DNA from: Cenococcum geophilum 1.58
Lineage: Eukaryota > Ascomycota > Dothideomycetes > Gloniales > Gloniaceae
Assembly (NCBI GenBank): GCA_001692895.1
Contig: KV748181.1
Span: 1,803,640 to 1,867,639, forward strand
Reading direction: 5' to 3'
DNA: 64,000 nt
Shown here: positions 28,058-55,487 of the stretch, in pieces
Position numbering within the stretch: the first letter of the stretch is position 1
Layout: every line of letters starts with the position of its first letter
The notes under the pieces: model-generated
What the model saw: only the letters and a program-made list of their open reading frames with translations
Database searches by the model: none
Told to the model about the DNA's origin: nothing
Program-made: the position numbers and the translations under genes

Positions 28058-28111
28058 TATTAGGAAAATATTCGCAGGATAAGATTTAAGTAGACTTTAT
28101 TTTTCGCGTTT

Positions 28112-28435
28112 CGTGTAATTGATATGCAATTTAACTAACTTGACACGCAATTAACTAACTTGATACGCAATTGACCAACTTGATATACAACTTAACTAAC
28201 TTAATACGCAATTAACTAACTTGACATATAACTTAACTAACTTAATACGCAATTAACCAACTTGATATATTTAAAAGTTAAATAATACGTAGTTGACCTA
28301 CTTAATAACTTTAAAAGCTAACTGCATATTCCTTAATATGCAATTAACCAACTTAAAATTTAAATAATATGTAGTTAACCAACTTAATAACTTTAAAAGC
28401 TAACTGCACATTCCTTGATATGCAATTGAGGTAAT
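28112..28435 (+). repeat. Left subterminal tandem repeat, about 20-bp unit
   Basis: Units of the form CTTGATACGCAATTAACTAA recur from 28112 to about 28275, then mix with a longer unit containing TTTAAAAGCTAACTGCA that occurs twice (about 28310 and 28390). Related motifs occur reversed near the right end (55420-55445). Such arrays are usual transposase-binding regions in CACTA-like elements. Confidence 0.75.
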
Positions 28436-28540
28436 ATAATATATTATTTTAAAGTTGTATGCTAATTGCGTAAATGAATTTTTACTATTTTCTTAGCCTG
28501 TAGTATGCTAGCTTATAATATATATTAGGATTAAAATAAT

Positions 28541-28690
28541 TTTATATAATCTTATATAATTTTATATAATCTTATATAATCTTATACAATCTTATATAAT
28601 CTTATACAATTTTATACAATCTTATATAATCTTATACAATTTTATACAATCTTATATAATCTTATATAGTCCTATATAGTCTTATATAGG
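28541..28690 (+). repeat. Exact 10-bp tandem repeat (C/T)TTATATAAT, 15 units
   Basis: Fifteen consecutive 10-bp units in perfect register, varying at CTTATA(T/C)AAT positions only. It lies between the subterminal array and the 3' end of the Plavaka relic. Confidence 0.9.
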
Positions 28691-28749
28691 TTTTATGCTA
28701 GCTTAGCTGCTTTTACTATTTATCCTAGCTTCTATATAATAACGCGATG

Positions 28750-31720
28750 CGGGTTCCTTCTTTAAGAAAGTTGTCCGAGTATAGAGTATTATATTGGTCC
28801 TAATTAATATAATTATTGATGTAGTACAAATCTGGATAAGAAGTAGCGGCTGGAATAATATGCGCGCTTTATAGAATAGATGGCATTAAATAAAAGCGAC
28901 TACCTATAAGTACTTGCCTAGTATTTACGCTTAAGCGCAGCTACCTTTTTACCTTAACCATACTATATATTGGATGCGGCAGTTTATAATTTAATAGCTG
29001 AAGTAGCTCTACTATAGCTCTAGTATACTGTATGTATATACCGTACTTATCTAACCTTTTAATATTTAGAATAGTAACAATTAGCTAAAGCTAGCCTATA
29101 AGTCTTCCACTTAATAGTATGCAGCCCTTTTTAATATAGTCGTCGTTATCTATATACTCTTAGACCTATACGTAATCACGCCTTTACTAGTTAAAACATT
29201 ACCAATCTAGTGCGCAACATACTACCTCACTAATTTAGGCCTTAAGGTTGGTTGTATTTTTTCCGTCTCGTTTCTAATAGCGGATAGATAGATGTATTTT
29301 AATAAGCAGGCGCTTAACCTATAAAGAATCCTTCTCTTTCTGGTCTATATTGGAGTTCTAGGCATATTCGCCTTATAGTTTTTGCCTATACTCTTGGATA
29401 AATACCGTAATGCCGTTTAGAAACCCTGGGATTTTGTAGTAGTTTGCTATATAAGATATATAAAGCTATGTCTTTAACCTAAGACGCCTTTAGATAAGAT
29501 CTGTTGCCCTATTTATGTCTTTTAAAGGCTACTAAAGCTTTATAACTACTAAATGCTATATTGGTTAAGTAACCTGTACCTCTAAACGCTAGGAAGACTA
29601 TAGTACAGAATTACTATTTGTGAAAGCTATTTTGTCTTCCATTGCTAGTACTACTACCCATCTTAAATTGTAAGAGCAGATTTGAGATAGCGAATCCCAT
29701 TTATTTGTTAAGTTATAAAACGCCTTAACAATATAACGGTGTTTAGCTTCGCTATTTGCGCCAGTATAGTACCTATTTGCGCATCTATATAGGCGGATAT
29801 TTTCCTTAAAATATACAAGGGCATGGAATTTTGGTATATTAAAATGGCCTATATTAGAATTCTTTACCTTTAGACGAAAACTTTAAAACACGCCTTTAAG
29901 CATATTAATTTAATATAGGGCGTGGTGTATATATTGTAGTGTCTCCTTATTATAGGTGCGATACTAAGCTATAATAATAAAGTTATATACGGCTCTTATA
30001 AAATATATAGTATATAGTTCCCTAGACGACAGTAGTGGGGCTAGTATAGCGATAAGTTGACGAACTATAGCTTTTTGTTTATTACCTGTCTATTAAGTAA
30101 CTTTACTAAATAACAGATTATTAAACCGTTTTAGCCCTATAAAAGCCAGGACTTGTCTAAAACGCTAATTAAGCTGAGCCTCCGTAGATATATTTGTTGT
30201 AGTTGTCTTTATCCCTCTTCTCTTTCTTTTTGGCTGGATAACATTACCTACTAGTTTCTGTACCTATTTAATAAGTTATATAATAATACCCTTTAGAAGC
30301 TGATGTAGAATATCTACTATTATGCCCTTATGGATATTAAATAGGCGATAGTGCTACGCAAAATATTCTACTGGGTGTACCTAGTTATCCGAGGATAGAA
30401 GAATGTTCTTTAGTTGCTAGCGTTTAATCTGTCTTCTTGTCTCCTCATAGGTGCGTAGTGGGTATTATTTCTTAGTTAAGTTCTTATGCTTTAAAGGGGG
30501 GACCTAGCACATAGTATAGTGCTGTTGGCTTTTAACACCTATAAGCAGCACTTGTTCTTTATAGTCTGCCATTATTCTATATATAATTGGATAATATTGT
30601 CGCATAAAATTATCCGTATATTAAAGGTCTATGCCGCTTTCTATAAGATGCTTAATTGCTATTATATTTTAGTTTATGGAATATAGCGTTAGAATACTAA
30701 AGTAGGACTTATATTTAAGTATAGTTCTTATCGCCTTATAATATGCTTTACTTTTTATATTGTTATCCTTTTCTTTAATAACTGGCATAAAACCAATAAG
30801 AATATTTACGGGGGATGTTTATTAGCGTTAAACTTGTTAGTTAAGATTACCAATGGTAAAATATACCGGCTAGGCCGATTTGTTACTATAGTGCATTGTT
30901 AGCTAGGTCTTATCAACTGCTATAAGTATAGGAACTACTATAGTACCGCTAGGAACCTTACCTTATGTCTCCTACTACTAATTACCGCTGTATAGCTTAT
31001 TATAGACTTAGTAGTTGTTGGTATTATAGAGTCTCTTTGGTATATATACTAGTATATCTTTAAAGGGTCGATGGCCAATTAGAAAGGCAATTATATTTAT
31101 AATATCCTAGTAAAGAATATGGTATTTCCTCTACTTAGAGCCTTTAATGTTTAATTCTACCTTATACTCTAATTGGAGCCATTGTTTGTCTTATATGCTA
31201 AATAGAATAGCGGTAATTAGTTCCTCCTATTAATTTGCAGATTAGAAGCTAAGTAGGCTATGAAGTAGGCTAAGGCGGGTGTCTTTAAGTAGTGCGTTAA
31301 CGTCTCCCTTTATATAGCGAATGTAGTATAGCTATATTAAAAAGGCGTAATTAAACTCTAAATAAAAAGGATTGTATAGTATACTTTAGCTATTATTGTG
31401 TTATTATATAGTAATATCTAAAATTATCTGGTTAACTTACTATATATTATTATCGGTTTTGCACGAAATTAGTTTACCTGCCTTTATATTTTTAGTTACT
31501 TTAAATGTCTTTACTTTAAGTAATAATAATAATAATAGGACGCTTTTCTAATGTGGTATACCGTATGGAGGTACTAGGTGGGTATTTTGCTTATATTCTA
31601 CCGCCACTAGAGCGTACTTGTTAGTATCCGTGTTTATACCATTTAGTTATAATTACGCGTTATCTAACTAGTTAGAGTGGTGGAATTAATTATAAATTAT
31701 AAGTAGTCGGGCCGCAATAA
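28750..31720 (-). pseudogene. Plavaka-type (CACTA-like) transposase relic
   Basis: Reads on the minus strand with few frame changes. From the N-terminal side: LEYKVELNIKGS and YQDIINIIAFLIGHRPF (about 31100-31200), VYNKLYSG** where the family has a Trp run, then the catalytic block KVPSGTIVVPILIAVDKT followed by NKSA*PVYFTIGNLN (about 30850-30960). Next are FNIHKGIIVDILHQLLKG (about 30290-30340), AQYRTYNKETLQYIHHAL, and GHFNIPKFHALVYFKENI with YYTGANSEAKHRYIVKAFYN (about 29700-29860). This order is characteristic of fungal Plavaka transposases. Stops at Gln/Trp positions. Its place 0.7 kb from the left end suits an element-encoded transposase. Confidence 0.85.
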
Positions 31721-31869
31721 ACGTGCGAGTGTTGTATCTCTTTTTACGTGTTTTTTTATAGATATATTGGTGGCTAGGCAGCTACCTTTTATAGTACTAT
31801 AGGTGTTGGTAAAGGCCGCCGTAACTCTTAAGGGTATAAGAACACTATAGATAGCTCCGCTGTATTATC

Positions 31870-33011
31870 GCTAATTGTATATTAAATAATATGGTATTAT
31901 TTCTAGGCGTAAAGAGTATGTGTTGTGGTACTAACGGTTAATTACCGGTATTTAATCTGAGTGGCTTAGCTTTGTGGCTGCTAAGAGTATACCTCTTATT
32001 TTCTTGCTAGAACTAGTTATACTAAAGCGTAAGTATAACTAGCTTAATACTAAGTTTAAGGACTTAAGAGTCTAAGGTAATTAAACTAGACGCTAAAGCG
32101 TAAGTGTAACTAGCTTAATACTGAGCTTAATACTAAGTTTAAGGACTTAAAAGAGTTTAAAGTAGCTAAACTGTGAACTAAAGACTTAATAGTACCCAAA
32201 AAACCTTTATCTGTCTAAATAATAATATATAGTATTTTTAGGCGATAGCTATAGGACTATAGCTATGGCGAAGATATTATTTACTACTAATATTATAGAG
32301 CTTAATAATGTTAGCTATTTGGACCTATAATTCCGTTGTTTCTATATAAGCCGTAGTAAAAAAAAAGGGAGAATTAAGGGTAGTGCTAGTTAAGTTAAGA
32401 TAACTAAATAAGTTAATACTTAGAACTATAATATCCGGTCTTAGGTATATAGAGTTCTAACTAATATCTAACTTAAGCTGCCGCCCGGAAGTTTTATATT
32501 TGTTATTAGGGTAACACTAGAGGGTTAGGCTGGATAATGGGTATTAGTAATAATATAGATAATTTAAAGCCCGCGAAGTAACTAAATAGAAAGCCCGTGT
32601 TTTGTAGGCTAACTGCTTATTTTTAACGGCTTTTTAAAAGTTTATTTCTAGAATTTCTTTTAACACCTCCGGTTTTTTGTTGAATAGATATATTAGCACG
32701 AGCCTATATACTACTAGGGTGCGGAGAGCTAAAATATAGTTGGAGCTCTTTAAATAATTTGGCAGAAAAGAATAGGTTATTTAGGTTAGTTTGTAGATTG
32801 GCCAGCTTAACCTTAATATCCTACTCTAGCTTGTGAAGATTAGGGCTATTTCTACCTGGTATGCTACCGTTAATCTATATATTGGCATCTCCCTTATTTA
32901 TAGCGGCTAAAGAAGCTTTAGGTGTCTAGTCTCTAAAAGGCATTATAATACGGCTTTTAAGAGAGCCCGCTCCGCGCTAGGGCACTAGACGCTATATTAT
33001 AGGTAGAGCTT
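31870..33011 (-). pseudogene. Unrecognised coding relic upstream of the Plavaka transposase
   Basis: A minus-strand frame with stops almost only at likely Gln/Trp sites reads MPFRD*TPKASLAAINKGDA, INGSIPGRNSPNLHKLE, LYFSSPHPSSI and RAFYLVTSRALNYLYYYQYP. I recognise no domain. The gag-only LTR element is inserted at its 5' side (ATAG at 33012), and weak coding trend continues beyond 39425. It could be an upstream exon or companion gene of the Plavaka element. Confidence 0.4.
32021..32150 (+). repeat. Direct repeat of about 50 bp, two copies
   Basis: ACTAAAGCGTAAGTATAACT followed by AGCTTAATACTAAGTTTAAG recurs 70 bp later with an extra ACTGAGCTTAAT inside. It lies within the unrecognised minus-strand relic. 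Confidence 0.7.
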
Positions 33012-33015
33012 ATAG

Positions 33016-33288
33016 TGTGGTGGGGTAAAATGGCTTACGCCTAGTACCTTGGCATTTTCCTGTATATATCAAGCCTTCGGCTTCCCTCCTTCTTACACAT
33101 AACGACCGACCGGGAATACATTCTTTCCTTTCTTCTTACTGACTGCTTTCCTACTGATTGATTACGACTGACTGACCGACCGACCGACCGACCGACCGAC
33201 CGACCGACCGACCGACCGACCGACCGACCGACCGACAGACAGACAGCACTGTGACTTTCCTATCTGAGAGTGGTCGTACCCTCCCACA
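33016..33288 (+). repeat. 5' LTR
   Basis: 273 bp, TG...CA ends, with a TATATATCAAGC stretch near 33074 and a (CGAC)n run at about 33173-33235 that accounts for most of the length difference from the 3' copy. The 3' copy is 267 bp; sequence outside the CGAC run is nearly identical apart from Ns. Confidence 0.95.
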
Positions 33289-33694
33289 TATTTTATGGCA
33301 TTCCACGTGGGGACAACGGCAAGCTCTTTGGATTAGAAGTCTGGCACTCTATACACAACTATATACACAGGAGATACGCAGGAATATACTACAGCTACAG
33401 AAGAACAGCTAGCTGCAGAAGAACGACCAGCTGCAGAAGAACCGCCAGCTAGACAGACGAGACGAAAGCAGAGAACCAGGCAGTATCGGACAGCAAGGGG
33501 AACCAGGTAGTCCCTAAACAAAAAGACAGCGGAAAAGACAAACATTAGACTCAACGCACAGGCCAAAGAGTAGCAAAAAGGAGTAGCAAAGGTCTCGGAA
33601 AGTTATATATAAGGACGTCCAGCGAACAGGCGAGCCAATCAGACGACTTCGACCGGTTGGAATTACCCAATATTTCTACTACCCGCGCACGAGC

Positions 33695-35998
33695 ATGGCC
33701 AGAGCTTTATTAAAGATGCAGAGACGATAAGTAGCTAAGGGCCAACAAGATCTAAGGTATCTAGCGGCGAAGGAAGTTAGCGCTGCCCTTTAGGAACAGA
33801 AGAGAGAATACCAAGAAAGGCCGTAAGCATATAAGATCAGATCTGCCCTCAAAAGCTTCCTATTCTGGCTTAGCTTTATCTTCTTTTAAGTTATCTAGAT
33901 TGTGTCAGCGGCAGCTGCAGAGGCGTTCTATAAAGAAGTAGATATAGGCAGAAGCGTAAGGCTTAGCAGCACCCTACCGCGCGGAGTAACGGCAGGCCAA
34001 AATAGACGGACGTATCGAGACCCAGCAGTAGTAGAAGATGGCGATTCTGTGCTCTCCCAGGAAGACCAACCTCTAGGTATTAAGAAGCAGCCAGAAGGAA
34101 CCGAAGCCTATACTTCTTTTACTAAGTATAAACTAATACTAGGACAGCTACCTAGGACCAGTAACCCTTAGTAGACAAAGGATATAAGCTGTAAGGACTA
34201 CCTATAAGCTCCTAAGGAAGCGCTAGATGCACGTAACCAGCGGTCAACGGCTTAAGACAAGGTCTATGTTATGGTCCAGCCTATACCAGCCCTAGGAACT
34301 ACTAGAGCTCCTTACTTTACAGGATAGAATATATTATAGTTTATCGAGCAGTACAAACGGCTATACGCCCGATATTATGTTATAAGCAAGGAGAAGCACT
34401 AGGGCCTTCCGGAGTACTGCAATTACTAGATAGGGATATAGATCTAAAGCCTACCTGAGTTCGTAATTGGTGACTAGATGGAGCTTATAAGAAGGCTTAG
34501 GACCAAATATTAAGCTAAGGACTACTACCGATGTATGGAGATAAGAGACTTCGTTAAGGTATTTATTAGGAAGTCAGCGGAGCAGCTAGGAAATCTGCGT
34601 CACTATATGCAAGATTTCACCAGTATCTTAGCTAAAGCAGTAGCCGTAGGAAACCTTACTAAGTAAAAGAAGGGGCGATGGTTTATACAAGGACTCCTAA
34701 CTAACTACCGTAAGCACGCAATAGAAAAGATAAGGGCCGTAGTAGACGAGCCTAGTACCCTTGTATTTAAGAGACTAAAGGAGGCCGTAGAGTTAAGGAT
34801 AGTGGCTATAGAGGGCGCTAAGCGAATAGATGTCCTTCTGGAAGAAGACGCCCTAAATATCTAGCTTATATAGGAGCTACGGCAGTAAAGGGATGGGCTC
34901 GACTGTAGAAAAGAAGGAAGACTTCTTAACCTAGCTAGGCCAGGTGTATATGGAGGAGCCCTAATATAGCAGCAGTCACCTATAACGGATTAAGAAATGG
35001 ACGAAACGGTAGGGCAGCTAAGGAGCCTAAAATTAACCAAGATGGAGCTTGCGGCAGCTACACGGTTAATGCCGTTTCTTAATTAAATATAGAAGGACCT
35101 AAAGAAGCTTATAACGCTTTCGAATTAAGCTATAGCTTAAGGCCCAGTATAAGGATATAGCCTAGCACCAGGATATAAAGACTGGCAGAACAGCACCCAA
35201 GCTCCCTTTGCTCCGTAAGACTTTTAATATCCGTATGATTTTTAATATCCGCAAGACTGTTGACCTCCGCAAGACTCTTAATATCCGCAAGGTTCTACTG
35301 CCTTTAGATAGCCGCAATAGGACGCATAGGGTACGCGAGGACAAGGCCTATAGACCTGTTTTAGATGCAGAGGAAGTTACCGTTTTACTAAGCACGAATG
35401 TTAAGGCTTAAAGGATCTTATTTAGTAAGGATTTGTGCATCTATCTAATTAAGGAAGACTAGTAGCTAGGATACGCGATTAGCCTAGACCTATACTCCCG
35501 TGGCTTGGTAATAAAGGACAACTGAAAGGTATTAAGAACTGGCTCTGTATGTACTAAGGAGTAGACCTAAACAGACTAAAGAAAGAACAGATGTAGTAGT
35601 GGGCCTTCTATAACGGAGCAGCGTTAAAGATTAGTAATAAGAAAAGTATAAACTAAGGGGACTACTATCAGAATCGCCTAACCTTTAAAGACAGCCGTAT
35701 AACTAGGACAGCTATAAAGCCATAGGAGAATAATATACGACCAGGAGATTACGTCTAGATTAGGTCACGGCCTACGGATAAGGCAGCTAAAGCTAGGGAA
35801 GACTATTATTAAGTAGTACCTATAGACGGATCGTCCGACCCTTGGCCGCGACCTTAGAGACGACTATATAACTAGGCTCCGCAGTAAGCACCGCAGCAGG
35901 CTCCGCAGTAGGCTCTACCGCAGGTGTAGGATTTTCAACTAGGGGACAGTCAAGTTCTAAGGTGGGGGAGGGGACGTAGGTAACGGCCGGTAAAAGAT
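33695..35998 (+). pseudogene. Gag relic of the non-autonomous LTR element
   Basis: One frame from ATG 33695 (MARALLKMQRR) runs about 768 codons with scattered TAG stops and no frameshift that I could see. The open part 33902-34171 (SAAAAEAFYKEV) is in this frame. A capsid-like region follows: APYFTG*NILQFIEQYKRL (about 34310), GDQMELIRRLRTKY (about 34470), IRKSAEQLGNLRHYMQDF (about 34570) and IEKIRAVVDEPSTLVFKRLK. A CCHC knuckle CFRCRGSYRFTKHEC is at 35359-35403. The frame ends beside a GGTGGGGGAGG run at about 35957, much like the element's true polypurine tract. Function inferred from capsid-like order plus knuckle. Confidence 0.75.
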
Positions 35999-35999
35999 T

Positions 36000-38300
36000 T
36001 CTATTTATCTGCTTATTTACTATATTTCCTAAAGCTCCTTTCTTATTTACTTTCTTAATCGTAACGCGTTAACGCGTCCTACTGCAAAGATATTAGTTTA
36101 GCTTACCGCCTATTACCGAGCTAATAGCAATTTTCTATGCCCGGCACGGAAAATCCTAATTGGTCCATTCAGTAGTAGAACCGGCAGAACTCTATACCGC
36201 CCCTAGAATTCGATAATGCGCCAGCTACACAATAAGAACGGCACTAAGAGCTTTAATTAATTGCACGGATATAGAGCTAATTATATAATATAGAGCTAGA
36301 TATAGAGCTATACGCGGAGCCTTAATTAAACGACTGTATGGAAGCCTTGGTCTCAAATAACCGCATAGAAGCTACGGTTAGTTAAAGGAACGAATCAAGC
36401 CAGAGCCTTAATATCAGCACGTCGCCGTTACTAAATTGTATCAGTTAAATGTCGTTAAATTAGAGCCTTCGACCGGGCCAACTTTGTTCCTTATTTAAAT
36501 AATAGCTGATCGCAGCTCTGCCCTGCCACCCGAATTTAGTACTGCACCAGCTGCACAACGAGAACGGACACCGCGATAAGGAAGGGACTTATATAAAGGC
36601 AGCAGCATAATATTAGTAATAAAGTACTACGTATTTAGGCCATCCTTATGCGACTAAAGATAGAATAAAGCCGTATCTGGCCAAGCCAGTGAAGGACCTT
36701 ATTAGGGTTTATAAAGGGAACAGGAATTAGACGTATAGGAGCTAGCGCTTTTCCTTAAAGGTTGTCTAATAAAGGACTATATTATGGACGCAAGGGCAAG
36801 GAATATGCGACGGAGGTAGTTATAATAGCTAAGAAGCTGCCACCAGATAACAAAGAGACTAGAAGTAGAAGACAGCCCCTAGAAGGCTCTTAAGCTAAAA
36901 GAAGATCAAGGATATATAAGCGTACTGCTAGTAGTAGGGGTAAAGGAGCAGCCTAAGATGCGCCAAAGAAGCTAAGTGCAAAAACGGCCCAGAAAGAGAA
37001 GAAAGCAGCTATTAAGGACATCCCAGAAAAGCACTAGGCCTGCTATAGTAGTTCAGAGGAAGCTACCGTTAGTGCTTATAAATAAGGAAGTCTTAAGACA
37101 GGTCTCTAGATTAGACGTCTAGTAAACACTAAGAGCCCTAATTATACGATACGGAGCCTTAATTAACTATATAGATATAAGGCTTTAACCGAATGACTGT
37201 GTAGCTAGAGTCTTAATCAATTATCTATAGATGCCAAACCTACGGATGCAGAGCCTTAATTGTATATACAGCAGAAGACACCTTAAGTTAAGCTAGAGCC
37301 TTAGTTAAATTCTAATCAGTTAAACGCCGCCTATATAAGTTAAGTCGTTAAATTAGAGCCTTTGGTCGGGCCGACCTAATACCCTATTTAGACGTCCGTT
37401 GATTATATATTATTACAGTTAAATTAAATCAGTTACCGTCGCCGTTAGATATCTTTAATCGGCAGTCAAAGATGCATTACTGTAGGCACGCAGGCACTAG
37501 ACCTAATTAGGAAATTAGTATACGGCTAGAAGCATATCGGAAACACGGTTAATTAAAGTTTTGGAGCCTCTATAAGAGCGTCTTCCCTTAGCTGTCCTCC
37601 CCCCTTATTAATTAATTGCTGCCCGTCTTAACGCCTATAGATTGGTTAACCAAAACGATCTTTCCTATAGATATAGATATGGAGCTTTACACGGAGTCTT
37701 ACACGGAGTTATATATAGACCCTATGGATATAGAGTATATAGGTACAGAGCCTTGATTAGACAATAGTATAGTAGCTTGATTGGACGCCTATAGATGCGA
37801 AGCCTTAACCGATCGGACGTCTATATAAAAGCTTTAATTAACTGTCTATAAATATAAAGCCCTAGTCGTACATGCAGCAGATACCTTAAGTTAAGCCAGG
37901 GCCTTATTAAGTCTAGATTAGCTAAATGCTATCTCCGCACGCAAATTAGGATAGTTAGAGCCTTTAACTGGGCCGACTTTCTACCTTAATCGAACGACCG
38001 AACAATTAGTTGCAGCACGTCGTCGCCGACCAATTAGACAGTCTTCGTCTGACAGTTAAAGCAGGCATGCAGGCACCCACGTAAATATAGACGCAGACTA
38101 TGCAATGTAGAGCTACTGATGCACAGCCAGATGCACAGTTAGCCGTACAGTTAGATGCAGAGCTATACGGACGTAAAGCTTGGCGATGCAGGGCCTAATA
38201 CAACGCCACGGATAGAGCCTTAATTAAGAGCTGTGTACGATGTAGACCGATGCAGAGCTAGGTACAGAGCCTTAATATTAAACGACCAGCCGAACCACCG
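36000..38300 (+). repeat. Interspersed GAGCCTTAATTAA repeats in the LTR element's spacer
   Basis: The motif (A/G)GAGCCTTAATTAA and close variants occur about 15 times (for example near 36312, 37148, 37251, 38214). A longer unit with GTTAAATTAGAGCCTTCGAC then CGGGCCAAC is seen near 36445, 37345 and 37950, so there are about three higher-order units. One stretch (about 36785-37070) reads with few stops as a Lys/Arg-rich sequence (KGKEYATEVVIIAKKLPPDN), but no known domain is visible. Confidence 0.7.
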
Positions 38301-38960
38301 AGTCGGGTTATAGCCTCTGCCGTCTTAATCAACTGCCCTACTACCGCCGCCGCTGCTGCTACTATTCCGTCTGACTGTTCTGTCCCTCCTGTCTTAACCG
38401 ATTGCTCTATCTCTACTGTTCTAGATCTGTACCGTTGCTGGATCTATTTTACTGCTAGATCTGCCGGATCTGCTATGACGCCCAACTGTTCTGACCGACC
38501 TGTCCCGTTCTACTGTTTCCACCGAGCGCTACTCCGACCGACCGCCGCCGACCGACTGTTCTACTACTACTGCTACTGCTACTGCTGTTCCGACTAGCTA
38601 TTCTACTGCTACTGTTTGACCGTTCCGTTCCACTGTTCCGATTGTTCTACCACTGCTGTTTTAACCGACTGCTACCGACCGACTGCCATCGACCGTCTGC
38701 CGTTACTAAGTGTTCTGCTATCAAAAGTTCTACTGCCAGATGTCCTATTGCTTGCTACACCGACCGAGTTCTTCTACCGACTGTTCTGTTACTGACCGTT
38801 CTACTACTAACCGTCCTGTTTTATTTTACTGCGCTAGATATCTGCTTTTATTGTTATTTCTATTGCCGTTACTACTACTGCTGTTACTATTGTTACTGCT
38901 ATCACTGCTATTGCTGCTGTCGCTATTATTTCTGATTTACTGCTGTCCTAGTTACTCCTA
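38300..38960 (+). repeat. Pyrimidine-rich low-complexity block (CTGTT, CTACTGC, CGACCGAC)
   Basis: Dominated by CTGTTC, (CTACTG)n and CCGACCGACTG. Open frames of 83-97 codons here are compositional and have no protein-like content. Confidence 0.8.
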
Positions 38961-39116
38961 GTTACTAGGTCGGATCTTAGCTATNGATAATAGGACGCCG
39001 TAGAGCAGTTCTATAGGAGAGCTAAGGACGAGGTTATCTNCGTTCTTTTAGGGATGTGCCTTCCTTTTTCTATTCTGCTTTCGCTATGCTTTCTTTAAGC
39101 TATTCTTCTATTGTAT

Positions 39117-39153
39117 AGAACGTTAGGGGACAACGTTCTTGGTGGGGGAGGTA
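39117..39153 (+). other. Hairpin and polypurine tract before the 3' LTR
   Basis: AGAACGTT (39117-39124), loop AGGGGAC, AACGTTCT (39132-39139) is a perfect 8-bp stem. GGTGGGGGAGG follows up to the LTR. The pairing of AGGGGACA with a GTTCT and then GGTGGGGGAGG also occurs at 35935-35970, at the end of the gag frame. Confidence 0.75.
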
Positions 39154-39420
39154 TGTGGTGGGGTAAAATGGCTTACGCCTAGTACCTTGGCATTTTCCTG
39201 TATATATCAAGCCTTCGGCTTCCCTCCTTCTTNCACATCACGACNNNCNGGAATACATTCTTTCCTTTCTTCTTACTGACTGCTTTCCTACTGATTGATT
39301 ACGACTGACGACCGACCGACCGACCGACCGACCGACCGACCGACCGACCGACCGACCGACCGACCGACAGACAGACAGCACTGTGACTTTCCTATCTGAG
39401 AGTGGTCGTACCCTCCCACA
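39154..39420 (+). repeat. 3' LTR
   Basis: 267 bp, same ends and internal sequence as the 5' LTR, shorter (CGAC)n run (about 39308-39366), Ns at 39233 and 39245-39249. Followed by the ATAG duplication. Confidence 0.95.
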
Positions 39421-40379: not shown

Positions 40380-40633
40380 ACTTTAAGTCTCGCATTTTAT
40401 TCTACTGCCTATATTAAAGCTTGCATCTTATTCTACTTCTTAGGCCGTCGAAAACGGACTCTGCACCTATATGTGGTGACGGCTACAAATCTGGGTCTTC
40501 GAAGTTTAGACTTAGAGCCAACGCAGAGACGTCGTATAGCGTGCGATAGGACCTGGTGGTCGTGGTTATAAGCGTTATAGGCGGTGGTAAAATTTTTTCA
40601 GATAGTGAGATCTTAAAAACCACTACTATGGCC
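40380..40633 (-). repeat. LTR-like sequence, reversed
   Basis: On the minus strand it begins TAGTGGTTTTTAAGATCTCA and continues CACCGCCTATAACG. This resembles 46011 onward (TAGTAGTTTTTAAGATCTTA, TACCTATAACG). The two could be reversed solo LTRs of one family. Limits are uncertain. Confidence 0.4.
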
Positions 40634-40639
40634 CTCTAC

Positions 40640-41179
40640 AATTCAGCTACGCTATTCTCCTATTAAGGCACCTATACAATCCAACGTGGATATACGGCAT
40701 TCGATAGCATCCCCTAACCCCTAATAGAAAGCATTAACGACCTCTTATATTAATAAACGAGCGATCGCGAATAAATAAGTAGACGAATGAGTAAATATAC
40801 GGCCCCTCCTAACCCCTAGGGCGATCGCCCGCGGAGCATGCGGTCACTCGCCGTTTTTTCTACTAAATACTACCTAGCAGCCTGGATTGCGACTTACGGT
40901 TTTCCCTATCTTTTTTTAACGGAGTAGTAACCCTTAAAAAGGGCCTAGCTGGGGCCTAGGTATAAAAGATACCTAAATACAATATAATATCCCGCTCGCT
41001 TATTAGTATTACGGTGGTTAGAACGGATAAATCCTCCTTACGCCTTTAATAGGCCCTAGGGGGGGGAAGGCATGGCGTATATAGTAATAGTTAGACAAGA
41101 AATAGCATATAGGGGATAGCCAAGATATAGGAAATAGTAGTACGGCAATTAATTGGCAAGGCCTAGCTGGGACGTAGTA
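40640..41179. other. Mixed-composition spacer
   Basis: No gene recognised. Contains a perfect 12-bp palindrome GGGCGATCGCCC (40819-40830) and a nearby GCGATCGC (40773-40780), plus CCCCTAACCCCT-type runs. Less TA-rich than its neighbours. Confidence 0.4.
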
Positions 41180-41462
41180 AACCCTAGCTAGGGTAAGCTA
41201 GAGAAGGAAGTAGTAGTTCCTAAAGAGTTTAAACATCTAAGGAGGACAGGATGTAGCCGTAGACCTATAGGGCTGCCGCTACGGACGGATATGGCAAATC
41301 GGGGTTTTTTATCCTACTAAGGTGGCTTATAGGGTTTTTCCTCCCCCCTAGCAGCAAGGGTTTTTTCCCGTTAATATTACTTTCCCCTTATATACGGAGT
41401 AGTCTGCGTGGGGCTAGATAGCATCCGTATCAGACGTTAATTAAAGAATTATTATTATTATT
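41180..41462 (+). repeat. LINE 3' UTR/tail fragment, diverged copy
   Basis: AGTAGTTCCTAAAGAG, then a GTTTTTCCTCCCC segment, ACGGAGTAGTCTGCGTGGGG and CAGACGTTAATTAAAGAATT(ATT)n, follow the order of LINE copy A's 3' UTR. Only the 3' end is recognisable, so this is probably a strongly 5'-truncated insertion. Confidence 0.65.
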
Positions 41463-41789
41463 CTACTTCTTATATTAAGACTCGCATTCCGTTTTATTTC
41501 TCGCATCGCTTTTAAATTACTCTCGTTAGCATCCGCTATTATCTTAAGTTAATACTATTAGCACACCTTCTTATTATAACTGTTAGGATTATCTTATTAT
41601 ATTATTACTAATTGTCTAATACATTATCCGCTCTACTATCTTTGTAAGTCACTCTATACTATTCTATATTAAGCTTTTACCCACTTATAAATATATAGGG
41701 TCCTTAACTATAATAGCGGCGCTATATCTAGAATCTAGTTGGTACTTAACTACTATAACTAATAAGAACTTATTATAAATAAGTGGTCT

Positions 41790-44700
41790 AAAGCTGTAGT
41801 AAGGACTTATAATTAACGAAAAAATATACAGCAAAATCCTTTAATACTATGCTAGCGAAATTAATAAAGCGTTTAGCGGTAGGTTGCTAATATCCGGACC
41901 TATATAAAATAGAGTTAAGCGTATAGTCTTTAACCTTCTTAATACTAAGTATAGGCACGTATTTAAGAGATCTGATCTACTATTAGAGTTTAAAGCTTTT
42001 ACTATTGCTGCTAAAAAATCTATATAGCAATACGTAACGACTAATAGATGTGAAGGTATGGAGGTTATAATAATTAATGCTGTTTAAAAGCGTGGCGCCT
42101 TATCTTTTAGAGAGCAGTTTATTAACTTATCTAGATTAAGGGCAACCTCCGAGGCTGCCTAGGTGCTTAGTAATTTGTTTATTAAAGCCCTATAATAGCT
42201 AAATACTATACTTATACTATTTTATAAAATGAGCTTTATTGTGTATAGTTACCTAGATAAAACGCTATTTACTAGGGCCCCTATTCTATACGGATTTGTA
42301 TTAAAAACTAAGTATAAGTATCTATTATCCGATTCTCTAGAGAAAATTAATATATATTACTGTGGATATAATAAGCTATAGGCCGCGATAAGTAAAAACT
42401 TCTTAGCGGATAAATATAGGGATGGCTGGACTATAGTAGATCTAACCACTGGTATATTAATTCTTAACTATATAAACCTGGCATTTATAGTACTTTCTAT
42501 AAAGAAGGCCGGACTTAATATAATTATAATTAGAGTTAAAGATTTTAATTAGATTATAAAGCGTAAGAAACTTTATAATTTATAAGATTATATAATATTG
42601 TATAGAGTTATCTAACGTATATTTACAGGTATAAGATTTAATGAGGGTGATTCCGAGTCTGACTTTAACCCTAATATTATATAACCGGTGCTAACTAGAA
42701 GAAGAACAGACATACCTGCCCTGGGTTAAAGTAGTTATAAGTAGTTAATCCCAGAGTTTACGCTACCTATACCTAAGTAGTTAAATCTAAAGCTTATATT
42801 AACCCTAAAGTTTATACCACCTATACCTACTAATGTATTATTAGCCGTATAGCCGGCTATAATTAAAACTGCTCGTAGCTGAACCTATAGTAGTAAAGAC
42901 TAGCCCCTATTAGATAAATTAGAGCTTTTAAAAGGCGTGGATTTAGATAAAGTATAAATATTTAAGATAATGCTATAGGATAAAATAAAAGAATGGTGTA
43001 ATAAATGGCTAAAGTCTAATTGCGAAATGTTTATTAATATATTATTTAAGGATATAAATAATAACCCTAACCTAATTTGTATTAGGGAAATTAATCTTAA
43101 CCGTATATAGGAGCGCCGCTACTTTAACGCCTTAATTAACCCTATTTTAACTAATAAGGAACTGGAAGATGAGTATAAGGATAAAATTAAGAAGGTTAAT
43201 TAGGAAGTTAATTACCTAAAGGATGTACGAGAAGTATATATTAACCTAATATTATAGGTAAAGGCGCTATAGTTCTTCTCATTTCCGTTAACTGTTTGTA
43301 ATACTCTTTAAGACGTAACCTTTTACTTATATGGTATAAAAAAGGGTAAAGCTATATAGATATATTAGCTGCTTAGTGTTACCTATACTCTTCTTAATTA
43401 TATAACCTTAAGTAGGACCTTTCTTACAGATATAATGGGTTTAGGTAAAATACTTTAAATGCTTTTAATCTAGTATACCAGTATGTTAATAACTAAAATT
43501 AACCTTAACTGGCTTAATTGGAAAAATTAAAAAGGTAGAGATAAAAGTTTCTACCTTGCCCCTAGTATAGATAAATACCTATAGCCGCCTAACGCCCAAT
43601 ACCTAAGTTAAATAGATGGTATGCTATAGTGCTGTTATATTAAGGGAAGTATCACTAGAAAATTTTTTAACTGGCTAGTAGGACTAACTATATATATTAC
43701 TAGATAGAATCTACTACCCTAAGCGGTTAAAGACGTTAAATTATAGTTTAAGACCTTAGAACTAAATAATTTTATTCCTAAAGGTAAACTATAAGTCCGC
43801 GTGCGTTATACGGCTTTTATTAGGTCTAGTATAAAGAAGTATAATTTTACGGATAAAGATAGGGATATTCTTAAACCTATAAAATATAAAGGAGAAGGTA
43901 AAGTAGTTTGGTAGAAAATAGACCTAAGATTGGCTTTGTATCTTATAATTACAACCTTATAAACTTAGGTAATAACCTAGACCGCTTAGGAATAGTATAA
44001 AACCATTTTTAATCTCTATAGAGATGGTGGTCCTCATTATATTATTAGTGGGATTTTTACTAATAAGTTCTATATAGATAGGTTAAAGATAGGTTATCTA
44101 ATAAAAATTACTAAATAAGTGTATAATAATTAAGTAGTATTTCCTCGCTTTTAACGCCTAGGCTAGTCTTATAAGGATAGTAATAGTAAAATAACCTACT
44201 ACACCTCTTAACCTTTAGTAGTGTTTACTTCCGGTACGCTAACTAGCGAAGGTTTTATAAGTCTAATTCCCGCCTTAGAAATTTTTAGGGCCCCTAATTA
44301 GACGGATTCCTTAAATATAAAATTAATTAATAATTATAATGTTAAAGCGTTAATTAAATATAAAAAGCTAGGAGTAGCTAATCGCTCTTTTCTTCTAAAT
44401 AAGGTTATTATGGGTTTTAAAGAATACTTCTCTTTAATTATAAAGGTTTTAATTATATATAGGATAGGGAAAGACCAATAGTTTAATGGGAGGGTAATTA
44501 ATAAGCTACTACTAGTCGTTTACCAAGACTGCTATATAATAAACAATTTAATATTTAAACCGTATATTAAGAAGCTCTAGTATAGAGCATCCCTAAAAGC
44601 TTTTAAATAGCTAAATAAAGCTTTTAGACACTGGAAAGCTAAAGGAAGAAAAGGAAAAAAACCCGTCTTTAATATAAATTAATTTCTAGAGGGAGCCGGT

Positions 44701-45520
44701 TACTTATTAAAAAATTTTACTATCTTTTTAGGTCTAGCTAAGGTAGGAGATAAGTGGTAGGATATGTGGTGGAAGGATAAGATAAAAGTTAGAATAAAGC
44801 TAAGGTGGATAGTTAATAAGTTCCGTAGCGAAAAATGGGATAAACCTTTAGACGAGAATCTACTTTAGAAGAATTAGAGTATAATTACTAACTCCAGAAA
44901 ACTAAATGGAATTATAAAATATATTAATAAAGTACTTAAAAGGAATCCTAATAAGAAACTACTATTTAGCAGTTATAAACTAGCGGTATATATACTATTA
45001 CGCCTTATAAGTTAGCCATTAAACTAGTAGTAAACTGTTACTAATAATATAATATAGTATTTTTATAAAAGGCTTGGCTAGTCTAAATATTTAACTGTTT
45101 ACTAGATAGAGTCTAGAATATCCCTAAAAGACTAGGAGAATATTTATAAAGCGTTTTATATTTTAATAGGCAGTTTTTACTAGAATAACGTAGTCTAGTT
45201 TCTTATTATTAACCAAAGAGTTAGAGGAGAGGGTTTAAATTTAGTCTCTATATATAGAGTCCATTTACTTAAACCGGCGATAATAGTAGATATAGAGGTG
45301 CAAGTATTCGGCCGAGCTGCTAGATCTAGATAGCTAGCGTTAATAGTTACTGCGTTAATAACGTATAGTACGGATAAGTGGAACCCAATTAATATAGTTA
45401 TATTAGTAAGGCGTATAATAACTAAAAGGATAATAATTAATAAGTTCTATAAAGTGTTTAAAGCCTAACCTACTTAGTAGGCTAATAATAATATAATAGA
45501 AATAGCGTAGCTAGTATAGT
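41790..45520 (+). pseudogene. SNF2-type helicase/ATPase relic
   Basis: A long plus-strand frame with stops only at likely Gln/Trp sites. A large N-terminal region of unknown fold (RHVFKRSDLLLEFKAF near 41960, FTRAPILYGFVLKTKYKYLL near 42270) precedes the Walker A block TDIMGLGKILQMLL (about 43425-43465; the family has GLGKT). The C-terminal helicase half has KKLLFSSYKLAVYILLRL (about 44955), RVRGEGLNLVSIYRVHLLKP (motif V, about 45220) and QVFGRAARSRQ (motif VI, about 45300). A chromatin-remodeller-like translocase is the best reading. It lies inside the proposed 27.4-kb element, and helicase-like cargo is unusual for a DNA transposon. Confidence 0.75.
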
Positions 45521-46215: not shown

Positions 46216-46930
46216 ATGCTAACTAGAATAATTAGTAAACCTAGCTTTACTAGACAAATATACTTAATTATAAGAACCAAAACCCTATTACTATTAAGCT
46301 TATTATACTACAAAATAAAAGGGCTATTATCGATATTGGTACATTTTAAAGGTACTTTATTAGCCGGCACTAATAGATATAAGTTAATGGACTATCTACT
46401 ACTTTATATTTAATAGTTTTAAGAACAATAGGGCAAAATATACTATTATTTATTGTGCTCTTACCGACTATAATATTTAATTTATTATAGGCTAGAAATT
46501 TAACCTTAAAGATAAGCGAAAGGCAGACTTTTAGGATATGTTAGATATATTATAGACGAAACCTTTATATAACCTACCCGTATTAAAACACCTTAATAGC
46601 AGTACTATACCATTAGATTTTGCTATTAGGTATTAGTAACTAAGCAACCTTAAATCTTTTCCTTATTGCCCAGCCCTAAGCCTTATTACGTCGCTAAAAC
46701 TTATTATATTATTAAGTTTTATTATATTACCGTTAAGCCTTATTACGTTGCCGAGCCTTATTATATTGTTAAGTTTTATTACGTTACTAAGCCTTATTAC
46801 GTCGCCGAGCCTTATTACATTATTAAGTCTTATTATATTACTAAGTCTCATTGCATCGCCGTTAAGCCTTATTACGTTATTAAGCCCTATTATATCGCCG
46901 CCAAGCCTCCTAGCTAGATTAAGTAATTGA
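46216..46930 (+). pseudogene. Unrecognised relic ending in a hexapeptide repeat
   Basis: An open stretch of 65 codons begins at ATG 46216 (MLTRIISKPSFTRQIYL). After stops, a second open stretch from about 46666 consists of (K/E)PYY(V/I)A-type hexapeptides. By position it could be the gag side of an LTR element that begins at 46008, but I see no gag motif. Confidence 0.3.
46675..46915 (+). repeat. 18-bp (sometimes 21-bp) minisatellite, about 12 units
   Basis: Unit AGCCTTATTACGTCGCCG and variants, in codon register throughout, giving KPYYVA, EPYYII, KFYYVT and similar hexapeptides. Units alternate between a GC-keeping and an AT-shifted version. Confidence 0.85.
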
Positions 46931-47984: not shown

Positions 47985-48325
47985 TATAGTAGTACCAAGA
48001 CAATAATAGAATAATATAAGATAATAATAGGATAATATAATATAATGGCAGGATAATAATAGGATAATATAATATAATGGCAGGACAATAGTAGGATAAT
48101 ATTAGGACAATATAATATAATAGTAGGGCGATAATAGAATAATATAATATAATAGCAGGATAATATAACATAATGGCAGGACAATGTAATATAATAGCAG
48201 GACAATATAATATAATGGTAGGATAATGTAATATAATGGCAGGATAATGTAATATAATAGTAGGATAATATAGGATAATATGGGATAATATAACATAATG
48301 GTAGGACAATAGTAGGATAATATAA
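47985..48325 (+). repeat. Minisatellite, about 20-21 bp unit AGGATAATATAATATAATGGC
   Basis: About 15 imperfect units of (AGGATAATATAATATAATGG or a shorter AGGATAATA form). The pattern lets all three minus-strand frames stay open (up to 143 codons, Ile/Leu/Tyr/Ser/Pro-rich); these are shadows. Confidence 0.85.
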
Positions 48326-48389
48326 AAAAATAAAATATAAGATATAAAAAGAGGGAGCCCTAACACTTCCTCTTTTTTTTACTCCCACG

Positions 48390-49605
48390 GCCCTAGCGCC
48401 TAATATAGTATAATATCGTCTATCCGTATAAGCGATAGTATTAAGACGGTTAGAAGTATTAGGAAATTTTATAAAGTATATATTACTTTAAGTAATATAC
48501 CTAAATAACTAGTCTAGCGTATGGTTTGTATAATATATAATAATAACGGGGGGATCTCCTATTGTTATATTGCTAAGCAACGCCTTTAAAGCTATGTTTT
48601 TCTAGTGCCTAGAGGTCTTTAGATTATTGCAAGACGCTTTATAAGAACTTATTTTAGTATAGTAGCTTAAGATTTGTTAAGCCCTATAGTAGTTATATCT
48701 AACTAGTCTTTAAAAATGTAAATATTCTTAAATAAGGAAGTATCCTTAATAGCTATAATTAAACTAAGATCCGTATAAGGCTTATTTATAACGTATTATA
48801 GTGCTTTAATATTCTATTAAACTTAAATAAGGTGTTCTAATAACGGGAATCTATTAGTGGTTAGATATCTTCTTATTTAGAAAATATTATACACTTACGG
48901 CTCTCTTATTAGCTTTTATAATGCTAATATAGTATAGTAACTAACTTTGTAAAATCTAGTTTGTTCCTTAACTATCGTTTATAATATAGATAAGTTAATT
49001 TTAATATCTTTAGGTCTTAAAGAATAAGTTAACCTTTAGGGGATTTTATTCTAATGCGGCTAATAGTCTCGCCACTACTATTATAAGTATATATTTCGTT
49101 TAAAAATTGTTAGTCTTAGGAGTTAAAGTAACTAGAGACCTGGCAACTAGTCTTTTTAACTAATCCTAATGAATTATCTTCCCTACTCTTCTAAGTAAGA
49201 ACGCCACGTAGATTACTAGCTCTTAAGGTAAAAATATTACTAAGCTAGTATGGACCTTGCAGATATTAGGGGATAACTGCTTTGGAATTATAGCATGCTT
49301 ACCTGTTTATATATATTGACTTTATTACTATATCTAGATTCTAGTAAACTAAAAAGGGTTTGCTCTGATTTAACCTACTACCTCTTTTAATAGTTTAATT
49401 GTGTCTTCTTTTAAAAGATTATATTAAGAGCTTAGATACTCCTTTATTAAGCTATATAGACCTAAGATCTTATTAACTTATAGTGGAATATCTCCGTTTT
49501 CGCTAATAATATTCTGGCCCTTATTAGGGATATTAAGTATTTTAGTAGAGGTTGGGACCTCTAATTGTGCTAACTAGGCTTTACTAGTTATGGGCTAACT
49601 AGGCG
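48390..49605 (-). pseudogene. Unrecognised coding relic, about 400 codons
   Basis: One minus-strand frame reads almost through, with stops at likely Gln/Trp sites: NKGQNIISENGDIPL and KILGLYSLIKEYLSS near the start, LKRLVARSLVTLTPKTNNF (about 49100), VVARLLAALEQNPLKVNLFF, then LNKKISNHQQIPVIRTPYL, NITIGDPPVIII and a YTDDIILYQALGPW end (about 48400). The even coding content means a real gene was here, but I know no family with this order. The SINE-like copy at 49625 sits just upstream of it. Confidence 0.5.
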
Positions 49606-49624: not shown

Positions 49625-49756
49625 ATAGTTACTAGTATATATTAAGCTGCCTAGAAAGGATTTATGTATATAGAACTATAGTACTATAGCCTAAAGGCTG
49701 TATACGCATTATTATATATAGTATAATATAATAAATATATATAAAAAAAAAAAAAA
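49625..49756 (+). repeat. SINE-like or truncated LINE tail copy with target-site duplication
   Basis: Third copy of the tail family (GTTACTAGTATATATTAAGC to poly(A)). Flanks: AAAGTATTAGTAAAT at 49610-49624 and AAAGTATTGACGAAT at 49757-49771, identical except for four transitions. The whole mobile unit is thus only about 130 bp, and its 5' limit agrees with where the other two copies lose similarity. Confidence 0.75.
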
Positions 49757-49771
49757 AAAGTATTGACGAAT

Positions 49772-52353: not shown

Positions 52354-52425
52354 AACGAGTATATAGAACCTAGCTAGGATGAGTATATAGAACCCAGCTA
52401 GAACGAGTATATAGAACCCAGCCAG
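52354..52425 (+). repeat. 24-bp in-frame tandem repeat, three units
   Basis: AACGAGTATATAGAACCCAG plus CTAG, encoding NEYIEPSQ-type octapeptides (Gln codon now TAG), inside the long unknown relic. Confidence 0.9.
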
Positions 52426-52442
52426 AACGAGCAATATTATAA

Positions 52443-53041: not shown

Positions 53042-53161
53042 AATAATTGCGTGTTGGTTTAAAATACTCTCCTACGCGCCTAATCTGTACCTTACTGCGT
53101 AAATAATTGCGTGCTAATTTAAAATACTCTCTCGCGCGCCTAATCCGAACCTCATTGCGTA
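53042..53161 (+). repeat. 60-bp tandem repeat, two units
   Basis: AATAATTGCGTG followed by TTTAAAATACTCTC and CGCGCCTAATC recurs at 53102; a third partial start lies at 53162. Confidence 0.9.
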
Positions 53162-54477
53162 AATAACTAACATTTAGCTTTATATTCTCCCTAGTAAGCT
53201 ATGTTTACCTAAACCCTAATATAGCTTCGTCTACGAAATAAGTGACCTCCCTTTAATATAGAGTATACTAATTTAGTGTTCGATCTAAAGGGGACCTAGA
53301 TAGTACTAGGGAAAGTAAGGACGAGTTAGACCACAACAATTTTAACCTAACTACCGCGATATGGGTAAGAGAAGAGTACCTCTGGATATTATAACGGTAA
53401 TGTATAAAAGAAAACCCACCTAAGAGATATGAGCCTATATTTGCGCTTTATAGGTTTATTTTACTAGTAAGGCTAGTAACTAACTCTGGGACTTATAACG
53501 GGTATTTTATTAACCCGTAGTTCGACCGCTTTTTAGGCCTTATTAAGGATATAATAAAAAAGGCATAGTTAGAAGCTATTTTAAAGCAGCCGAAAGTAGT
53601 ATAAAAAAAAGCTAATTATATTCCTAACCCGGTGTCCGCTTATAAGGTATCTATATATTAGAAATATTGTATTAAATTGTCTACTAATAATCTTAATATT
53701 ATATATAGCTATTTGACGTAATAGGGAACTTTAGGAATTACGCGATTATAAAGGCTTGTATAGTTATAAGGGAGGTGTATAGGCTAGGGTTTAATAATGT
53801 GCCCGAACTAATTGTGGAACTATTAACTAATTATAATTTTATTGCGCTGAATTACACAAAGGTATTTTGCCTGTGCTATTTAGTAAAATGCTAATAAGAG
53901 TTAATAGCTAAGTAATAACTGCTTCCGTTCCGATGTGATAGTTGCTAGTATAGCTAGTATATTTTATGGTAGAGGAAGAAACGGCCTTGCCTAATTACCC
54001 TGCTCTTATAATATGTTTAAAAAGCTTACTGGTAATACTATTGCTTTTGTTTTAATAGCAATATATTATATAATTAGGGAGTATAGAACTGGGTCTAAGG
54101 GAACGGACAACTTTTATGGCACTATTATTAGCGGTTAGTGTATATCCGGTGTTTTACTACCTATTATTATTCTTTAACCCGTTGTAGAAGCCTACGCTAA
54201 CCTCTTAGGCAGCTGGAACTAAATATCTAAAAAACGGCAATCTAGAATCTGGCTGCGGCTTTAGCCCGTAGTTATTAAATATGCTATAGGCCTAATGCCG
54301 GATTAATTAACTATAGAAATTATTAAGGACCTATATAAAGATGACCTTAATAACCTTATAGCGGATCTAAGCAATAATGTAAGAGAGAGGTTCCTTGTAA
54401 GCCTTAACAACAACAAAACTAACGCGATTATTAACTTAGGCTATTTATTGGTAAGCTGGGCTATACTATTTAATCTA

Positions 54478-54616
54478 CTAAGTCTGTCTTAAAGGGAGAG
54501 CTTTAGAGTAGGCTAGACTAGTTTACTAAGTCTATCCCAAATAGAGAGCTTTAGAGTAGGCTAGACTAGTCCGCTAAGTCCGTCTTAAAGGGAGAGCCAT
54601 AGAGTAAGCTAGAAAA
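54478..54616 (+). repeat. 48-bp in-frame tandem repeat, nearly three units
   Basis: CTAAGTC(T/C)(G/A)TC starts at 54478, 54526 and 54574, each followed by GAGAGC(T/C) and AGAGTAGGCTAGACTAGT. It encodes a 16-residue repeat in the frame of the long relic. Confidence 0.9.
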
Positions 54617-55334
54617 TCTAGGGCCCTACTACTACTATAATATTTGCTAATTCAACTTTTAGAACTAGCTAAGTGTGTTAGATTTAGTAGAATATATATC
54701 CTCCGCCCTAGTGTACCACTTTATCCTAAATATAGGAACCGGCGAGCCTAAGCCAGAAAGGTTTAAATCTAATAAGTTATTTGTATAATTTAAGCAGTAC
54801 TACAGCTTTGCAGAGGACAGCTATAGCTAGTATAGTAATGGAAAAGCAATATTAAATTTAATTAAGAATGAGGAGTAGTATATAAAGTTTATAATATATA
54901 CTCTAGACTCTAGTATAGAGGAGCCGGTAGAGTTTTTAGTAGGAGATTAGGTATAGAACTTTCTATACTCTCCTATAGAATAACTGCGGCTTCTTTATTA
55001 TATATACTAGCTTTTAATCTACCTTTCTTTTAGCCTATATCTGCTACTCTTAATAGCTACTTTTTGGCTATATATATATGCTATACTAGCAAAGCTAAAT
55101 ACTTATAGTATATTATTGTCGCAGGGAGAGTAGGAAAGGTTTTATGCTTTCAGAATATATTATAAAATAGTTAGGATATTATATTAAATTGTCTAAAATA
55201 ATATAATGGATTGTATAAAGAAGTGTATACAATTTACCTTGCTAGCCTTATAAATAGCTTTAAAGTAGCCTTTATTTATTATCTAAAATATACTGTTAGT
55301 ATAAAAGAGGTAGGTGGCTCTAAATATAATTATG

Positions 55335-55450
55335 GTTGTAGGTTGCGCGTAGGCTGCGCGCAGGCTGCGTGTTAAAAAAACACAATATAGGCTAGTTGGT
55401 CGAGTTGCTAAATGCCCTTAACTGCGCGCTAATTGCGTCAACCACCAACC
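55335..55450. repeat. Right subterminal region of the proposed giant element
   Basis: GGTTGCGCGTAGGCTGCGCGC is followed by AGGCTGCGTG (three 11-bp units). CTAATTGCGTCAACC, which reads reversed GGTTGACGCAATTAG, matches the core of the left array (CTTGACACGCAATTAAC) in inverted orientation. Confidence 0.6.
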
Positions 55451-55487
55451 ATTAAGGCCATTGGTAGGGTACCATATTTTGCCGATG

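Follow-up and report, generated by a model that had tools for sequence, protein, structure and literature searches.

The stretch of DNA analysed here, 64,000 nucleotides of Cenococcum geophilum 1.58 (contig KV748181.1, positions 1,803,640 to 1,867,639) that are referred to below as the window, holds a long interspersed nuclear element (LINE) that is split in two by 27.4 kb of other DNA. The locus raises the question what kind of element was inserted into the LINE, how large the mobile unit is and if the genes inside serve the element that carries them. What was inserted at 28058-55487 is very probably a copy of a cargo-bearing Plavaka transposon, a cut-and-paste DNA element of 20.0 kb. The Plavaka lineage belongs to the CACTA/EnSpm-Mirage-Chapaev-Transib (CMCT) clade, and the element's ends come closest to those of PlavakaB. 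A first-pass annotation of the window had proposed a single DNA transposon with a Plavaka transposase, bounded by named ends and lying in one LINE, and the analysis arrives at the same reading in its core.

Insertion site, ends and size of the element

The following features define the insertion, its target and its ends.

28058-55487, no strand assigned: whole insertion, the giant Plavaka copy, with 20.0 kb of its own and 7.4 kb of later nested insertions
55488-58985, minus strand: split LINE, part one (self-alignment)
25874-28057, minus strand: split LINE, part two, with a reverse transcriptase match (self-alignment and RVT_1)
8328-13743, plus strand: LINE copy A, uninterrupted, serving as the empty site (self-alignment)
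28056-28057, no strand assigned: target duplication TT, left copy (self-alignment, flanks)
55488-55489, no strand assigned: target duplication TT, right copy (self-alignment, flanks)
28058-28071, plus strand: left terminal inverted repeat, here TATTAGGAAAATAT, family form CATCGGGAAAATAT (30 loci)
55474-55487, minus strand: right terminal inverted repeat, family form CATCGGCAAAATAT read inwards (30 loci)
28119-28267, plus strand: array of subterminal 20-bp repeats clustered at the left end, consensus TTGATACGCAATTAACTAAC, 7.3 copies

Self-alignment of the window showed that LINE copy A matches the minus strand twice, with 8328-11583 corresponding to 58743-55488 (identity 86.0%) and 11582-13743 to 28057-25877 (identity 86.7%). 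The two matches join at copy A 11582-11583 with an overlap of 2 bases (TT) and no LINE sequence lost, and as the two half-LINEs meet in this way in the uninterrupted copy A, it represents the empty site. TT is present on either side of 28058-55487, on the left in ...TTTACCTT followed by TATTAGG... and on the right in ...GCCGATG followed by TTCTTTAT..., and it is the 2-bp target duplication that arose from insertion into one LINE. The LINE half at 25874-28055 contains the RVT_1 match (1.2e-16). The exact interruption of one LINE described in the first-pass annotation is thereby borne out, and the junction displays neither a large overlap nor a loss of LINE sequence.

The family ends were derived from 30 left and 30 right loci aligned on one strand, which gave CATCGGGAAAATAT and, for the right end read inwards, CATCGGCAAAATAT. 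The element terminates in CATCGGG..CCGATG with 14-bp inverted repeats, and the ends in the window are versions of these family ends altered by repeat-induced point mutation (RIP), so that the imperfect inverted repeats reported earlier are real. Of the 22 copies for which both flanks could be compared, 21 have an exact 2-bp duplication, and all 22 have one if transitions are allowed; flanks of unlike copies, used as control, agree at 2 bp in 56% (exact) and 68% (transition-tolerant). At 3 bp, 0/22 copies agree exactly and 2/22 with transitions allowed. The commonest target is TA. Six copies have a non-TA flank, and both sides agree in five of these and differ by one transition in the sixth; the duplication therefore does not merely reflect a preference for TA. 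The 20-bp subterminal repeats are candidate binding sites of the transposase. The inverted subterminal motifs noted in the first pass are clear as an array on the left, while the right end has a single site related to it.

The size of the mobile unit follows from two further copies, c54 (19,951 bp) and c111 (19,943 bp), which were fetched whole in addition to the window copy; the length of the other copies is known from their ends alone. The window copy is colinear with both except for two insertions, which are listed here together with an older repeat.

33016-39420, no strand assigned: nested long terminal repeat (LTR) element of 6.4 kb, with LTRs at 33016-33288 and 39154-39420 that are 95.6% identical
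40442-41457, no strand assigned: nested 1.0-kb retroposon with a 14-bp duplication TTATTCTACTTCTT, absent from c54 and c111
49626-49757, plus strand: 130-bp repeat with an A tail, resembling a short interspersed nuclear element (SINE), found in c54 and c111 too

The LTR element is flanked by a 4-bp duplication (ATAG) and is likewise absent from c54 and c111. Since both inserts came later, the mobile unit amounts to 20.0 kb. The size of 27.4 kb given in the first pass describes what now lies in the LINE; as the size of the mobile unit it is ruled out by the nested insertions and by the copies of about 20 kb. The SINE-like repeat, which c54 and c111 share, was already present in the progenitor.

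Some further repeats were observed. Both LTRs of the nested element hold CGAC microsatellites, and no reverse transcriptase domain was found in its three plus frames, the frames that were scanned, so it is possibly non-autonomous. The SINE-like repeat also occurs at 5931-6060 and 13922-14051, where two inverted copies bracket LINE copy A. Tandem repeat arrays lie within the giant element at 46676-46895 and 47997-48340; indels between the copies cluster near the latter. An Rfam scan of the window gave zero matches.

Copies of the element in the source genome

The first-pass annotation had suggested a search for other copies sharing both ends, and this was done in the source genome (177.19 Mb, 162 contigs). 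The 14-mer quoted there is by itself weakly specific, with 64 genome matches compared to 16 for the reversed control, and six of the first eight loci picked with it (L001-L008) have no match to the element when compared with c54. For the other two, the similarity is confined to a portion of the left end region in L006 and covers, in L001, the left 386 bases and p 19640-19779, which are separated by about 0.9 kb of unrelated sequence. Specificity comes with length: exact genome matches number 377 for a left-end pattern of 35 bases and 174 for a right-end pattern of 28 bases, and the reversed controls have none. The best 40 of 1,571 left and of 1,510 right candidates were scored, and 34/40 left ends have a partner right end no more than 60 kb away on their own contig and strand. 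In 23 of these 34 pairs the spacing is 19.8-20.3 kb (19.82-20.32 kb), and in the other 11 it is 21.1-52.5 kb. With regard to orientation, 34 end neighbours within 60 kb lie on the same strand in the right order, one lies on the same strand in the wrong order and none on the opposite strand. Ends that belong to separate elements, an outcome named in the first pass as speaking against a single element, were looked for and not found, as the ends pair in 34 places.

The paired elements share their gene content as well. The count over pairs used 44/123 Plavaka, 41/65 ZNFX1 and 30/76 DUF6532 matches, and none of the matches left out lies inside a pair, as judged by eye. Plavaka and ZNFX1 matches are each present in 34/34 paired elements and DUF6532 was detected in 24/34; DNA of the SNF2-like frame described below, for which the best 40 of 64 candidates were used, is present in 30/34. 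Within the 23 canonical pairs the offsets are 2.1-2.2 kb for Plavaka, 7.70-7.77 kb for SNF2-like DNA (22/23), 13.3-13.8 kb for ZNFX1 and 18.2-18.7 kb for DUF6532 (17/23). The gene order is fixed: Plavaka transposase, SNF2-like ATPase, ZNFX1-domain fragment, DUF6532. The 10 remaining hits to the SNF2-like DNA are, by eye, in the vicinity of matches to Plavaka, ZNFX1 or DUF6532.

To find shorter elements bounded by these ends, neighbours of the right ends on contigs C1-C8 were examined (n = 42, from 100 listed places of each end pattern). A left end on the same strand, in the right order and within 60 kb exists for 24/42, at a distance of 1.7-4.3 kb in 11 cases and of at least 11 kb in 13, and there is one opposite-strand neighbour within 5 kb. 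This suggests that the 1.7-4.3-kb elements with both ends are non-autonomous elements moved in trans by the same transposase.

The copies differ from each other almost only by transitions. Between c54 and c111 there are 1,756 transitions and 2 transversions over 19,858 aligned bases; the window copy differs from c54 by 1,949 transitions and 9 transversions and from c111 by 1,846 and 7. The transitions favour CpA, which is the RIP context. At the end loci, most copies show a median transversion distance of 0, with C60, C5 and C21 (left) and C54a, C45 and C29 (right) as outlying loci. As the copies are nearly identical apart from RIP-type C-to-T transitions, a burst followed by RIP is indicated: the record is that of one near-identical progenitor group, with a few older or diverged members, which would have spread before RIP hit the copies. 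We infer that RIP disabled the examined copies after this burst. Because C-to-T changes are almost the only differences, the copies also document, with little else mixed in, how RIP acted on a single 20-kb template in many positions of the genome.

Genes carried by the element and alternative readings

The genes inside the giant element were located by Pfam scans, with c54 scanned in six frames and stops read as X, and by stretches with few stops in all three whole copies.

28697-32874, minus strand: approximate transposase reading frame, a few-stop frame common to three copies
30261-31166, minus strand: Plavaka transposase domain PF18759, 155.5 bits in the window copy
41590-45489, plus strand: SNF2-like ATPase frame, with motif I at about 43423-43461 and a motif V-VI-like stretch at about 45196-45311
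48705-49567, minus strand: captured 5' part of a ZNFX1-type helicase gene, with PF25396 at about 49013-49255
53884-54141, plus strand: match to DUF6532 (PF20149) of 28.2 bits in the window copy, above the cut-off of 24

The Plavaka transposase that the first pass had placed near the left end is confirmed by PF18759, with 2.2e-40 in c54 beside the window score. Readable stretches of the type DKT..GDK..WPVY and ADYKE..HC..C, candidates for some of the catalytic acids and for the C(2)C motif of the CMCT clade, whose transposases are further marked by an H(3-4)H motif, occur both in c54 and in L073, a Plavaka relative (1-7500, C30:1712001-1719500). L073 is not RIP-altered (TpA/ApT 1.11, GC 45%) and its Plavaka match holds 5 stops. 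It has an array (about 5322-5459 in L073) related to the tandem repeats inside the giant element and, by eye, also stretches of the 1.0-kb retroposon. The genome has further Plavaka matches outside paired elements; by eye, a DUF6532 match lies within several kb of about 12 of these other Plavaka loci and a ZNFX1 match of about 9.

The SNF2-like assignment is made from motifs. At p 6053-9898, the three copies have few stops in common in one of the plus frames; the minus frame opposite to it is about equally low in stops. SNF2 motif I is of the type LADxMGLGKT, and the plus frame has a TFLADIMGLGKTL-like stretch in 3/3 copies. This motif-I pattern, fixed after the frame had been viewed, occurred in 0/300 Markov sequences, and a piece of 55 residues around it has four PDB matches, all of the SNF2 family, with non-significant E values of 0.4-1.2. 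Near its end the frame reads GEGLNL..FGRAARSRQ-like, with GxGLNL itself in 2/3 copies. Motif V-VI is weakly supported, since the C-terminal piece has only unrelated (GCN5) PDB matches at E of about 1 and GxGLNL occurs in 9/100 Markov sequences. The frame at 41590-45489 is therefore called SNF2-like at the motif level only. Of the SNF2 helicase claimed in the first pass, motif I in a low-stop frame stands, whereas a significant profile match does not back it.

Unknown genes had been noted inside the element as well, and a ZNFX1 fragment and DUF6532 were found beside the SNF2-like frame. PF25396 scores 4.1e-10 in c54 and 29.2 bits in the window copy, and no helicase-domain match was found in the piece at 48705-49567. 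The genome has 23 AAA_12 matches, none of them in paired elements or in the L073 stretch; one sits 1.5 kb from a stop-free ZNFX1 match on C16, and at this locus (C16:2569004-2571322) ZNFX1 and AAA_12 domains are both without stops. A complete ZNFX1 helicase as cargo is thus ruled out (0/23 AAA_12 matches in pairs or beside the relative on C30), and the best interpretation of the piece is capture of part of a helicase gene of the host. Between the giant element and L073, the ZNFX1 stretch differs by 14 transversions at 855 sites (1.6%) and the transposase by 213 at 1,505 (14.2%), which implies that the piece moved between Plavaka families or was captured repeatedly; the ZNFX1 homology stops at about 4886 of L073. 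DUF6532 scores 22.2 bits in c54, under its cut-off of 24. Two other matches are taken as spurious: LbR_Ice_bind in the c54 scan falls in a tandem-repeat stretch, and MgtE_N is below its cut-off.

These data suggest how the transposon might work. The transposase, encoded by the minus-strand gene at the left end, would bind the inverted and subterminal repeats and, judged from its superfamily, would act as a DDE-type enzyme that excises the element and joins it to staggered cuts of 2 bp. The full element would be autonomous and would in addition mobilise, in trans, the shorter elements that share its ends. As a guess, the SNF2-like ATPase and the DUF6532 protein might assist transposition or help the element to escape silencing. 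The family would expand in a burst and RIP would then disable the copies.

If the carried genes matter to the element is the point on which the alternatives survive best. It is possible, though it is held to be the less probable case, that the SNF2-like, ZNFX1 and DUF6532 parts are carried along as passengers and do nothing for the element. ZNFX1 is a mere fragment that lacks the AAA_12 domain of the intact C16 locus, and the SNF2 gene is too decayed for a selection test. Against passengers, DUF6532 and ZNFX1 recur near the other Plavaka loci, and the ZNFX1 piece is much closer between the two families than their transposases are. The ZNFX1 family is linked to RNA silencing. A more specific idea, in which the SNF2-like remodeller, the DUF6532 helper and the family-hopping ZNFX1 piece would form an anti-silencing set of the giant Plavaka lineage, is unlikely. 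Such a set would aid expression of the element or blunt RNA-guided silencing, as has been suggested of the TET/JBP genes that other DNA transposons of fungi carry (PMC12730594).

That the 20-kb element is itself non-autonomous and is mobilised by the transposase of another Plavaka family is improbable. Other Plavaka matches do exist, and L073 is not RIP-altered even though it contains stops; however, the giant element has its own Plavaka gene near one place in all 34 paired copies, and this transposase is far from that of L073. A composite, in which different mobile elements were stacked at one LINE site and contributed different ends, has hardly any standing: the window copy does contain two nested retroelements and a SINE-like repeat, but in 23 places the two ends are 19.8-20.3 kb apart and enclose genes in the same order, copies are flanked by 2-bp duplications, and c54 and c111, which lack the nested parts, remain colinear over 20 kb. 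Segmental duplication or recombination instead of transposition, to which the near-identity of the whole-read copies apart from RIP would be suited, is just as implausible in view of boundaries at the same base, different flanks, the 2-bp duplication in 21/22 copies and the exact LINE insertion.

Several observations nevertheless weigh against an autonomous, gene-bearing Plavaka transposon. Among the best candidates scored, 6/40 left and 6/40 right ends are unpaired, as are 18/42 right ends on C1-C8, and left ends are more than twice as frequent as right ends (377 and 174), an excess that is unexplained. Every Plavaka match listed inside a paired element has in-frame stops, so that there is no intact frame from which function could be read. 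For the SNF2-like frame, none of the 72 genome matches to PF00176 lies inside a paired element, PDB profile searches gave nothing, and no profile is significant, Helicase_C reaching E 0.17 in 1/3 copies. DUF6532 is undetected in 10/34 pairs. Finally, the termini CATCG..CGATG are one base off those of PlavakaB, as compared below.

Comparison with known systems

The comparisons draw on excerpts of the cited papers. PlavakaB elements have target duplications of 2-3 bp and termini CATCA..TGATG, and they may capture passenger genes, which in some include TET/JBP (Kojima, 2025; PMC12730594). The giant element resembles them in its Plavaka transposase and its 2-bp duplication. Its termini have 4/5 bases in common with the PlavakaB form; the PlavakaA form TGT..ACA does not fit. 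In contrast to PlavakaB as excerpted there, the giant element measures 20 kb, and its cargo is an SNF2-like gene, DUF6532 and a fragment of ZNFX1. The Plavaka families in that account, some with captured genes and defined ends, come from Agaricomycotina, whereas the RIP marks of the giant's host point to Pezizomycotina. Pfam scans of the giant copies contained no TET/JBP family, which RIP decay could hide.

Plavaka families are also described in Rhizophagus (PMC11075540), and a mushroom library rich in Plavaka and KDZ has members of up to about 42 kb, their kind being unstated in the excerpts (PMC9674265; PMC8290104). In the red alga Chondrus crispus, enlarged EnSpm/CACTA families of 16-20 kb have 4-5 open reading frames (cited in PMC6431247). 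These belong to the same transposase clade and are similar in size and gene number, but they are EnSpm rather than Plavaka. In the protist Amoebidium appalachense, Plavaka-associated giant repeats of up to 50 kb hold a Plavaka transposase and further genes (PMC11244446). As excerpted, these repeats are tandem intron-poor gene clusters with many tyrosine recombinases and are delimited by methylation blocks, whereas the giant element is a unit of fixed size (20.0 kb) that has inverted repeats and target duplications. Since giant Plavaka-associated repeats have been published for this protist, the giant element is not without precedent in size, and the expectation of the first pass that a large cargo-bearing Plavaka would be new has to be corrected (PMC11244446).

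The literature searched, one limited collection, yielded no SNF2 gene inside a Plavaka element. Starships are large cargo-bearing elements of Pezizomycotina that are moved by a tyrosine recombinase. The giant element is likewise large and cargo-bearing, and it differs in its Plavaka transposase and its inverted repeats; six-frame Pfam scans of c54 contained no family of a tyrosine recombinase captain, which RIP decay could hide. The giant element is thus an unusually large, clearly bounded and cargo-bearing member of the known Plavaka group, seen here with exact ends, a target duplication, an empty site, dozens of equally spaced end pairs and short partners. A Plavaka transposon was apparently able to move a 20-kb multi-gene unit in a RIP-marked fungus of the Pezizomycotina type, outside the Starship class.

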